Part shown: positions 20,165 to 23,246 of the stretch, in pieces
How the letters are laid out: every line of letters begins with the position of its first letter
Numbering within the stretch: position 1 is the stretch's first letter
Assembly: GCF_019683595.1 (NCBI RefSeq)
Contig: NZ_JADGHZ010000005.1
Span: forward strand, 1 to 50,537
Reading direction: 5' to 3'
Source of the DNA: Sphaerobacter sp.
Lineage (GTDB): Bacteria; Chloroflexota; Chloroflexia; Thermomicrobiales; Thermomicrobiaceae
Length of the DNA: 50,537 nt
Translations under genes and position numbers: made by a program
The notes under the pieces: generated by a model
What the model was told of the DNA's origin: nothing
The model's input: only the letters and a program-made list of their open reading frames with translations
Database searches by the model: none

Positions 20165-20929
20165 CTACCCCTTCCGCGCCCCGAGCACGAGGATCGCCGG
20201 GATGACCGACAGGCGACGGACGGTGGCATCCGGGAAGCGTTCTGCGAACGCGTCGTCGGGGTAGGCCTCATCGAGCGCATCGATCAGCAGTCCATTCGCC
20301 GTCAACTGGAGGGCGTACCAGGAGAGCGGGCGATGGTAGTTCATCGTCGGAGCGGGCTGCCCGCTCTTGGCAATGGTGGACGCCGCGAAGGGCTCTCGAT
20401 ACCGCCAGACCCGCACTGAGATCCATTGTTCGTCGGTCACGTCCTGCTCGATCAGCCAGCTTGACCCTTCCGGGATCTGGAAGCAGGGGTGGAACAGCGT
20501 CGCGACGAAGCGCCCACCGGGGCGGAGGAGGCGGGCCACTTCCCGGATCGTCCCTTCGGCGTCCTCGATGTCCATCAGGACCATGCTGGCAGTGATGCGA
20601 TCGAAGCTCGCGTCGGCCAGGTCCGGCAGATGCGCGGCATCACCGACCAGATAGCGCACCCCACGCGGTCGTGCGGCCTCCCGCTGGCGCGCCAACTCGA
20701 TCAGGCGCGCGGAGACATCCACACCGGTGACCCGCGCGCCGAGGTCGGCCAGCGCGCGGCTGGTCGCGCCGTTGGCACATCCCAGGTCAAGCACGTCCAG
20801 GCCGGAAACGTCGCCCAGCACCCGCAGCAGCGCCGGCCGAACCAGCAGCCGGTGAAAGTCGTCGCCCTCCTCGCCGACCTGCTCGTCCCAGAAGTCCGCG
20901 ATCGCCTCGAAGCTCCCGCCGTTCGTCAT
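20165..20929 (-). CDS. Class I SAM-dependent methyltransferase
   Basis: The protein has 254 residues. SAM-binding motif I is VLDLGCANG (46-54). Motif II and acidic residues follow (VTGVDVSARLIELARQ), then VGDAAHLPDLADASFDRI and RLLRPGGRFVATLFHP, typical of UbiE/Methyltransf_11 proteins. The substrate is unknown. The gene starts 3 bp after the stop of the endonuclease IV gene and is the last gene of the arsC-like/nfo operon. It lacks the cysteine set expected of arsenite methyltransferases, so a link to arsenic is not supported. Confidence 0.87.
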   Translation of the reverse strand: MTNGGSFEAIADFWDEQVGEEGDDFHRLLVRPALLRVLGDVSGLDVLDLGCANGATSRALADLGARVTGVDVSARLIELARQREAARPRGVRYLVGDAAHLPDLADASFDRITASMVLMDIEDAEGTIREVARLLRPGGRFVATLFHPCFQIPEGSSWLIEQDVTDEQWISVRVWRYREPFAASTIAKSGQPAPTMNYHRPLSWYALQLTANGLLIDALDEAYPDDAFAERFPDATVRRLSVIPAILVLGARKG

Positions 20930-20932
20930 GCC

Positions 20933-21799
20933 CTACTCCTCCGGACGCGGCGCACCGACCAGGCTCCGCAGCCGCGCCAGGTTTTCCGCGTCCTCATGCA
21001 GATCGTCACTCTTGGGGGTTTCCAGCAGCCCCGGCAGGCCCTCCAGCCGCGGGTCGTTCACGACATTGTGGAACCCCGCAAGTCCGATCATCCCGGCTCC
21101 GATGTGGTCGTGGCGATCAACGCGGGAGCCGAGGTCGCGCTTGGAGTCGTTCAGGTGGAGCGCCCGCAGGTTCGCCAGCCCCAGGATGCGATCGAACGCG
21201 TCCATCGTCTCGGCGTACCCCTCGGGCGTGCGCAGCTCATAGCCCGCCGCGAAGGCGTGGCAGGTGTCGAAGCAGTAGCCGACCCGCTCCGGCTCTGCCA
21301 CGCGATCGACGATGGCCCGGAGCTGCTCAAAGCGGTAGCCGAGCGCGGAGCCCTGCCCCGCCGTGATCTCCAGCAGCGTCATCACCCGGTAGCCGGGCAA
21401 ATCGGCGTGGATCCGGTTGAGCGCATCGGCCACGCGCTGGATGCCGAACTCCTCGCCCGCGCCGGTGTGCGACCCGGGGTGCGTCACCAGGTAGGGCACA
21501 CCCAGGAGCGCGCAGCGCTCCAGCTCCACGCGGAATGCGTCGATCGACTTTTCCCACAGCGCATCGTCGGGCGAGGCGAGGTTGATCAGATACGAATCGT
21601 GCGCCACCACCGCGCGGATGCCCGCTTCCTCCTGCCGCTGCTGGAACCGTTCCACCTGCTCCGGCGGGATCGGCTTGGCGTTCCACTGGTTGTTGTTCTT
21701 GGTGAAGATCTGCACGGCGTCGCAGTCGACCTTCTCGGCACGGTCGATCGCCTTGTCGACTCCACCCGCGATCGACATATGCGCCCCGAAGAGCAGCAT
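20933..21799 (-). CDS. nfo: Endonuclease IV (AP endonuclease, Nfo)
   Basis: Endonuclease IV cleaves DNA 5' of abasic sites in base-excision repair using a three-zinc TIM barrel. The 288-residue protein shows FGAHMSIAGGVDKAI at the start, HDSYLINLASP, YLVTHPGSHTG, VGYCFDTCHAFAAGY, LRALHLNDSKRDLGSR and RHDHIGAGMIG, covering the metal ligands. I chose the ATG at 21799 because GGAG lies 6 nt upstream; ATGs at 21811 and 21826 are possible. It is in an operon with the upstream ArsC-like gene and the downstream methyltransferase. Confidence 0.93.
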   Translation of the reverse strand: MLLFGAHMSIAGGVDKAIDRAEKVDCDAVQIFTKNNNQWNAKPIPPEQVERFQQRQEEAGIRAVVAHDSYLINLASPDDALWEKSIDAFRVELERCALLGVPYLVTHPGSHTGAGEEFGIQRVADALNRIHADLPGYRVMTLLEITAGQGSALGYRFEQLRAIVDRVAEPERVGYCFDTCHAFAAGYELRTPEGYAETMDAFDRILGLANLRALHLNDSKRDLGSRVDRHDHIGAGMIGLAGFHNVVNDPRLEGLPGLLETPKSDDLHEDAENLARLRSLVGAPRPEE

Positions 21800-21848
21800 G
21801 CTCCGCTCCATCTCTCCGCTATACACGCGCCGTCCTCGACTGCCGGCG

Positions 21849-22220
21849 CTAATCCATCTTGTCAGTCCCGAACAGCGCGTCCAAACGCTTCCGGTCGAAC
21901 CCGAGGGCGCTCCCCTCGGGCGTCAGCAGCAGCGGACGCCGCAAGAGCGTCGGCTCCGCGACCATGAGGTCCAGCAGCTCGTCGTCCGACACCTCGCGCT
22001 CGGCAAGGCCCAGATCCCGGTAGGCCCGGCTGCGCTTCGACAGCGCCTCGCGGGGCGTCAGCCCCGCGCGCCGCAGCACGTCGGCCAACTCCTCACGCGT
22101 GAAGCGCTCCTTGAAATAGTCGCGCCGCACGTACTCGACCCCTCGCTGCTCAAGATACTCCTGAGCCTTGCGACAACTCGTTCACGTCGGATGGACATAG
22201 ATCTCGACCTCGCTCGCCAC
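21849..22220 (-). CDS. ArsC/Spx-family redox protein with in-frame TGA at the active-site Cys (probable selenoprotein)
   Basis: Reading from the GTG at 22220 (GGAAGGGGG about 8 nt upstream) gives 123 residues with one in-frame TGA at codon 13 (22184-22182). The context is EIYVHPT-TGA-TSCRKAQEYL. Spx/ArsC-related proteins have CTSCRKA or CTTCRKA here, so the stop sits exactly at the first Cys of CxxC. The frame then continues without another stop through the family's typical body, including the conserved RRP motif (R94-R95-P96), to 21849. A SECIS-like hairpin follows at 22148-22166. The likeliest reading is UGA-encoded selenocysteine at position 13. Alternatives are a point-mutated pseudogene or a sequencing error. 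The gene heads an operon with nfo and a methyltransferase. The family reduces arsenate or protein/glutathione disulfides; the substrate is unknown. Confidence 0.82.
22148..22166 (-). promoter_or_regulatory. Candidate bacterial SECIS hairpin
   Basis: Minus strand GCTCAGG / CTTGAGC forms a 7-bp stem (one G-U pair) with loop AGUAU. The loop begins 22 nt after the TGA and has a G at its second position. These features match the published general form of bacterial SECIS elements (loop roughly 16-37 nt after UGA, G within the first two loop bases). The hairpin is inside the coding region, as bacterial SECIS elements are. Confidence 0.65.
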
Positions 22221-22394
22221 GCCCGACCCCCTTCCATCAGGTTCCATCCCCTGCCCGACATGGTAACAGCCCGGCGCCGCCCGCGCCCGAATCGTGGCCA
22301 CGGGATCCGGCTGCTTCGGGCCGGTCACACTGCCGGCCCTACCGGACGCGCGGCCACGCGGTGTACACTCGGCGCCGAGGAGAGGAGGAGCGGT

Positions 22395-23246
22395 TTGCGG
22401 ATCCTCGTGACCGGCGGATCGGGGCAGGTGGGACGCGCCCTGCAGCGGCTGGCACCTCCTGGGTATGTCGTCGTCGCGCCCGGCTCCGACCGCTGCGACG
22501 TGACCGACTTCGAGGGAGTTATCCGCCTGGTAGCAGATGAGCGGCCCGATGTGATCGTGCACGCGGGCGCCATGACCGACGTCGACGGTTGCGAGCGCGA
22601 TCCGCAGCGTGCCTTCCGAATCAACGCGACCGGGACCCAGCACGTCGCCGCAGCCGCGCAGCAGTTCGGCGCGGCCCTCGTCTACCTCTCCACCAACTAC
22701 GTCTTCGACGGTGAGGCCGCCGAGCCCTACCACGAGTTCGCCGAGCCGCGGCCGATCAGCGTCTACGGCCGCTCCAAACTCGCCGGCGAGGAGGCTGTCC
22801 GTGCGCTGGCCCCGCGCCACTACATCGTCCGCACGGCGATGGTTTACGACGAGACGGGCCGGAACTTCGTCAACACGATGCTGCGGGCCGCCGCCGAGCG
22901 TCCTTCGCTCACCGTCGTCGCCGATCAGCGGGGCAACCCGACGTACGCAGGCGACCTCGCCGCCGCGATCTACCGCCTGATCGAGCAACCCGCCTACGGC
23001 ACCTACCACCTCGTGAACGAGGGCAGCGCCTCCTGGTACGAGTGGGCGGTTGAGATCTTCCGCCTCGCTGGAATCGAGACGCAAGTCGAGCCGATCCCGG
23101 CCTCGGCGTGGCAGCGCGCGGCCCGACCTCCCGCCAACGGTGTGCTCGCCAACACCGCCGCGGCGACGCTCGGCATTATCCTCCCGCCGTGGCAGGACGC
23201 ACTCGCGCGCTGCCTCGCCCGGCGAGCGGTGCTGCAGCCGGCATGA
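22395..23246 (+). CDS. rfbD: dTDP-4-dehydrorhamnose reductase (RmlD/RfbD-like)
   Basis: This 283-residue extended SDR protein reduces the 4-keto group in the last step of dTDP-L-rhamnose synthesis. Evidence: the NADPH motif TGGSGQVG (6-13), AGAMTDVDGCERDPQRAF with the RmlD-type DVDxCE signature, the catalytic Tyr124-x3-Lys128 (VYGRSKLAGE) and NPTYAGDLAAAIY. The start is TTG at 22395 with GAGGAGGAG just upstream. Its stop overlaps the start of the glycosyltransferase gene by 4 bp, so the two probably work together in surface glycan assembly. The earlier Rml steps are not in the window. Confidence 0.9.
   Translation: MRILVTGGSGQVGRALQRLAPPGYVVVAPGSDRCDVTDFEGVIRLVADERPDVIVHAGAMTDVDGCERDPQRAFRINATGTQHVAAAAQQFGAALVYLSTNYVFDGEAAEPYHEFAEPRPISVYGRSKLAGEEAVRALAPRHYIVRTAMVYDETGRNFVNTMLRAAAERPSLTVVADQRGNPTYAGDLAAAIYRLIEQPAYGTYHLVNEGSASWYEWAVEIFRLAGIETQVEPIPASAWQRAARPPANGVLANTAAATLGIILPPWQDALARCLARRAVLQPA

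Follow-up and report, generated by a model that had tools for sequence, protein, structure and literature searches.

When a frame of the ArsC/Spx kind is broken by a single in-frame TGA, does the codon specify selenocysteine, or does it mark a cysteine gene damaged by mutation or by a sequencing error? The frame in question lies on the minus strand of a 50,537-nucleotide stretch of DNA (the window) from Sphaerobacter sp., a heat-loving member of the Chloroflexota (order Thermomicrobiales), and this stretch forms a single contig in a draft assembly of 3.89 Mb (324 contigs, completeness 99.98%). The first-pass annotation, made from the letters of this stretch, had taken the frame for a probable new selenoprotein.

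The interrupted frame and its family

Reading the minus strand from GTG 22220 to TAG 21849, we recovered the frame as it had been described, interrupted once, by a TGA at codon 13 (22184-22182) in the context HPT-U-TSCRKA. Decoding this TGA as U gives VASEVEIYVHPT-U-TSCRKAQEYLEQRGVEY..., a product of 123 residues. The Shine-Dalgarno-like sequence ahead of the start codon also precedes the GTG in the nearest relative (G001). The features of the locus are the following.

21849..22220, minus strand: predicted ArsC/Spx-like selenoprotein gene for 123 residues, from a GTG start to a TAG stop with a single TGA in frame
22182..22184, minus strand: codon 13, TGA, predicted selenocysteine opening the UxxC motif; among 49 homologues, 38 have TGA and 11 have Cys here
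22173..22175, minus strand: TGT codon 16, resolving cysteine of UxxC; Cys in 49 of 49 homologues
21933..21941, minus strand: codons 94-96, RRP; Arg95 is the counterpart of the anion-binding Arg92 of Spx; neither Arg nor Pro varies in 49 homologues
22227..22235, minus strand: Shine-Dalgarno-like GGAAGGGGG, read from the sequence, six bases 5' of the GTG start
22148..22166, minus strand: bacterial SECIS element; 8-bp stem of 22166-22159 with 22155-22148, loop GUA at 22158-22156
20933..21826, minus strand: nfo, encoding endonuclease IV (deoxyribonuclease IV), conserved on the downstream side; TIGR00587 295.7 bits, cut-off 129.65
20165..20929, minus strand: class I SAM methyltransferase, next gene after nfo; below every NCBIfam cut-off, linkage only within the genus

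At this locus a standard ORF caller lists only a 93-residue ORF (21849-22130) that begins at GTG 22130, which is the truncated annotation that had been foreseen. The full-length protein matched the Pfam ArsC family (PF03960; 5e-19, 68.8 bits against a gathering cut-off of 24) and the arsC_related model of the Spx/MgsR family (TIGR01617; 86.1 bits, curated cut-off 75.05), and the genome holds no other gene of the ArsC family. The RRP motif, likewise read from the letters beforehand, was located at residues 94-96.

Conservation of the TGA codon, the hairpin and the selenocysteine machinery

Homologues were present in 26 of the 61 genomes searched, namely the source genome and 60 relatives from its genus, family and order. 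At the position of codon 13, all three species of the genus and numerous further genera have TGA, and others TGC or TGT; phylum-wide the majority of matches also carry TGA, and the tally over 49 homologues examined across Chloroflexota was 38 TGA, 8 TGC and 3 TGT. This alignment gave what marks a bacterial selenoprotein gene, an in-frame UGA at a redox-cysteine position with Cys homologues, and it agrees with the Cys-to-Sec exchange that had been proposed from a single sequence. Unrelated stops in the frames of relatives, which the first-pass annotation had named as counter-evidence, were not what we saw; the relatives, including the two other species of the genus, have TGA at the same codon, a recurrence that chance or error would not give. 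A maximum-likelihood tree of the homologues requires at least six Sec/Cys changes. Downstream of the TGA, dN/dS was 0.02-0.23, and the frame 3' of the TGA is under purifying selection. A pattern scan of the genome contigs found only Cys forms because its patterns spelled Cys, and a plasmid search gave only Cys-type ArsC-like matches, below 42% identity, among the matches listed. Two homologues are broken in other ways: one with TGA and hairpin (L023 1428-1500, genome G027) has an apparent one-base frameshift about 50 bases past the TGA, apparently an assembly error or recent decay, and a Cys homologue (L026/L027, genome G052), from a genome without selA or tRNA-Sec, is interrupted by TAG and may be in decay or misassembled.

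Folding of the RNA 3' of the UGA gave a hairpin, GCUCAGGA-GUA-UCUUGAGC, that spans 16-34 bases past the UGA, has its loop 24 bases after it and stands at z = -2.9 against shuffles; a stem-loop just 3' of the UGA with G in a small apical loop is the bacterial SECIS form. The 7-bp hairpin noted beforehand (GCUCAGG-AGUAU-CUUGAGC, its loop starting at base 23 past the TGA, with 22 bases between) is present, and the fold adds one A-U pair to it, giving 8 bp and the GUA loop. Across 11 TGA genes, several of them from distant lineages and all chosen for a common register, 97.7% of cells were paired, compared with 77.7% in shuffles and 34-57% in slid-partner controls; both sides vary in four of the eight pairs, and G is always first in the loop. 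Because the rows were picked for their shared register, it is the slid controls and a synonymous-shuffle test that carry the weight. In this test, whose p-values are indicative only because the sequences are related, G-loop hairpins were better than expected in TGA genes (median p 0.044; Fisher 4e-12 over 22 representatives) and not in Cys genes (median p 0.87; rank test of TGA versus Cys, 5e-7), and a separate folding-energy test pointed in the same direction. Within the genus, synonymous differences fell in 0 of 7 stem codons as against 17/96, 25/85 and 27/85 elsewhere. The hairpin is absent from the Cys homologues. In a few TGA homologues (G339, G030, G328) it was no better than shuffles, and a second register with a loop of four (genera g2, g5, g7 and g17) showed little covariation when taken alone, since most of its pairs hardly vary. 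An Rfam search of the region returned nothing above threshold.

The machinery for selenocysteine, which the first-pass annotation had suggested looking for, is encoded in the same genome in all four parts: selA (7.6e-159), a full-length selB (1.3e-104, model positions 2-578), selD (7.5e-114) and tRNA-Sec (selC; 74 bits, anticodon TCA, i.e. UCA). selD (L046 1501-2436, contig C179) is itself a selenoprotein gene, with an in-frame TGA (ASCAGUASK) and a hairpin 3' of it. In a panel of 28 genomes selA accompanies every TGA carrier; both selA and tRNA-Sec are missing from the Cys-only carriers (genus g12, G049, G052 and G321), three Cys carriers (G031, G033, G043) have Sec machinery, another (G360) has selA and tRNA-Sec, and G422, also a Cys carrier, has selA with no tRNA-Sec match. 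Since TGA carriers have selA and some Cys carriers have the machinery too, the Sec trait is required for the Sec form yet does not force it. Two genomes of genus g7 (G021, G028) gave no Rfam tRNA-Sec match at E 1e-9 despite a TGA gene, selA and a full-length selB, and may possess an atypical tRNA-Sec or one hidden in a gap; a 75% complete genome (G042, L021) has a TGA homologue and selA but no selB or tRNA-Sec match.

How else could the TGA be explained? It is one base away from TGC and TGT and was read in a draft of 324 contigs, so that one might suspect a misread base, or a Cys gene in decay that has acquired a nonsense mutation; against this stand the same codon in 38 homologues of many genera, the low dN/dS after the TGA and the position of the gene as the sole ArsC-family gene of its genome, and an error or decay is practically out of the question. 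Translation might instead begin at GTG 22130, as the gene caller's 93-residue listing has it, and yield a protein without the active-site loop. The residues 5' of that GTG are conserved, however, including HPT, the TGA-codon residue and Cys16, which is invariant; the product would lose the first strand and the first helix of the structural model, and the SECIS would be purposeless, yet it is under selection. An internal start is thus very improbable. Natural UGA suppression occurs in bacteria, and the UGA could be decoded as another residue, Trp or Cys, through near-cognate suppression or a reassigned code. Yet TGA is also a terminator, for genes in the window as for homologues, the homologues' only alternative at the codon is Cys, a tRNA-Sec with the UCA anticodon is present and a covarying SECIS lies downstream, and we hold such decoding to be most unlikely as well. 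We rejected all three because the TGA recurs in independent genomes, the whole frame is under selection and a SECIS follows the codon. On these comparisons of sequence, the gene is almost certainly a selenoprotein gene with selenocysteine predicted at codon 13, and the first-pass annotation is right in substance.

Relation to described selenoproteins

Selenoproteins of this general type have been described before: UxxS arsenate-reductase selenoproteins from the Sargasso Sea (PMC1088965) and UxxC (cd03032) arsenate-reductase-like selenoproteins from the selenoproteome of the Global Ocean Sampling (GOS) in 2008 (PMC2398784). Reviews name the UxxC form (PMC9312934, PMC13188914), which is now modelled as NF041106 (ArsC_rel_Se_1), and a 2026 review calls ArsC/Spx-like selenoproteins largely uncharacterised. 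The Sargasso Sea protein (ArsC 1) has Sec at the ArsC-family catalytic Cys, as here, but its UxxS lacks the resolving Cys of the UxxC in the window protein. The GOS "Arsenate reductase 2" has UxxC and an ArsC/Spx-type domain like ours and, compared by description, is probably of the same broad kind; it comes from marine metagenome reads, and in the text searched neither endonuclease IV nor Thermomicrobiales is linked to it. The "ArsC family (seleno)protein" of NF041106 shares with the window protein the ArsC fold, UxxC and Sec where the first Cys would stand, yet the window protein is far under the curated cut-off of that model (32.2 bits against 85), and nine of ten diverse homologues reached at most 43 bits or fell under the reporting limit, the highest of the ten being 51. 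With none of 251 Chloroflexota genomes above the cut-off, membership in NF041106 was rejected. The model for arsenate reductase (glutaredoxin), TIGR00014, gave 80.2 bits, short of its cut-off of 106.05.

The word "new" therefore needs dividing: it fails for the kind, since UxxC ArsC-like selenoproteins are published, and stands for a largely unannotated group below the NF041106 cut-off. Because the window protein and its homologues score under that cut-off, we regard them as a new group within a known kind, and on sequence the Chloroflexota group is a separate, largely unrecognised clade of the UxxC kind. This adds a well-supported, phylum-wide selenoprotein gene set that the current curated model misses in 251 of 251 Chloroflexota genomes, so that annotation probably shortens these genes to truncated ORFs or passes over them. 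Predicted selenocysteine is also placed in the lineage of the named species Sphaerobacter thermophilus, which the literature calls an obligate aerobe (PMC3035262).

Fold, neighbourhood and possible function

An AlphaFold2 model built from 36 homologues with Cys in place of Sec (pLDDT 90.5) matched Spx (Z 17.1, 2.2 A), ArsC-related proteins (Z 16.5) and R773 ArsC (Z 15.5). Residue 13 directly precedes helix 1 (residues 14-25), at the place of the catalytic Cys of ArsC and of Cys10 of Spx; Arg95 is kept in 49 of 49 homologues and the equivalent of Spx Arg60 is also kept, so that in the model the protein keeps the ArsC/Spx fold, the UxxC and the anion-site Arg. In oxidised Spx, Arg92 binds sulfate (PMC2801614). 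At the position of Spx Gly52, which is reported to be absolutely required for contact with the alpha-CTD of RNA polymerase and for activation (PMC2801614), the window protein has Thr, and none of 47 alignable homologues has Gly.

These observations bear on whether the product is an enzyme at all. Spx of Bacillus subtilis (PDB 1z3e, 3gfk) is its best match in both sequence and fold (E about 6e-30, Z 17), with CxxC at the same place and with both arginines matched, and the family model that it passes is named for Spx/MgsR; a redox-switched partner of RNA polymerase, with UxxC in the part of the CxxC switch, would fit these facts. Apart from Sec in place of Cys10, however, the protein differs from Spx in the Gly52 needed for alpha-CTD binding, which is replaced in 47 of 47 alignable homologues; ArsC and YffB fold matches lie only 1-2 Z from Spx, and Sec would be chemically unnecessary for a simple switch. 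We consider an Spx-type regulator unlikely. Could it then be a selenol arsenate reductase serving arsenic resistance? The PF03960 and ArsC structure matches, the invariant anion-site Arg and a genome without any other ArsC-family gene would agree with this, and ArsC of the R773 type (PDB 1i9d) and YffB are alike in fold (Z 15-16), in the position of the catalytic Cys and in the anion-site Arg. They have a lone Cys instead of UxxC, though, the 80 bits with TIGR00014 fall short of 106, no ars genes were recognised beside the gene in the window or among its conserved neighbours, and the neighbour is a DNA repair gene; we give this reading only a small chance. Because the Gly52 for the RNA polymerase alpha-CTD is lost in the homologues, we favour an enzyme, and the product is probably a selenol/thiol oxidoreductase rather than an Spx-type regulator.

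For such an oxidoreductase the following course can be proposed. SelB bound to the SECIS hairpin would bring Sec-tRNA(Sec) to codon 13, so that the ribosome would yield 123 residues and not stop after 12. Sec13, at the helix 1 N-cap, may then attack as a selenolate and reduce an oxidised substrate, be it a disulfide, a sulfenate, a peroxide or arsenate; it would form a selenylsulfide with Cys16, as the motif suggests, which thioredoxin or a small thiol could recycle.

The gene for endonuclease IV, nfo, starts 22 nt downstream of the selenoprotein gene and is found directly downstream in 19 genomes from 11 genera of the order, among Sec and Cys carriers alike. The linkage is missing from members of the order such as G023, G031, G027 and G150, and it is absent in lineages beyond the order, where no common partner gene was seen. 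Co-expression with endonuclease IV and a methyltransferase had been predicted from the window; synteny supports the former well, while the latter, linked within the genus only, is weakly supported and was rejected as a functional partner. The literature searched contains nothing that joins a selenoprotein, endonuclease IV and Chloroflexi, and a direct linkage of a UxxC ArsC-like selenoprotein gene to endonuclease IV appears to be unreported. It offers a concrete hint at the function of ArsC/Spx-like selenoproteins and suggests a role in oxidative damage: the gene and nfo may share a transcript that serves the response of an aerobic lineage to oxidative damage. That the role is coupled to oxidative DNA damage we propose tentatively, as a possibility that falls somewhat short of being the expected one. 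We find it highly probable that the locus as a whole is best explained as a recoded selenoprotein of the UxxC ArsC/Spx branch, a putative oxidoreductase whose gene may be co-transcribed with nfo. The wider proposal, a distinct and ancient Chloroflexota family of UxxC ArsC/Spx selenoenzymes that in Thermomicrobiales shares an operon with nfo and acts in the repair of oxidative DNA damage, for instance by holding a repair enzyme, or its metal or thiol state, reduced, is doubtful; if true, it would tie selenium functionally to base excision repair in aerobic thermophiles.

On the other side of the gene, a divergent dTDP-rhamnose reductase-like gene (named from sequence) lies upstream in many relatives. 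In the window the strand opposite the selenoprotein gene carries a single open frame of 554 residues (21582-23246, plus strand), a by-product of high G+C, and only its 3' half, at about 22398-23246, looks real and corresponds to this reductase-like gene.
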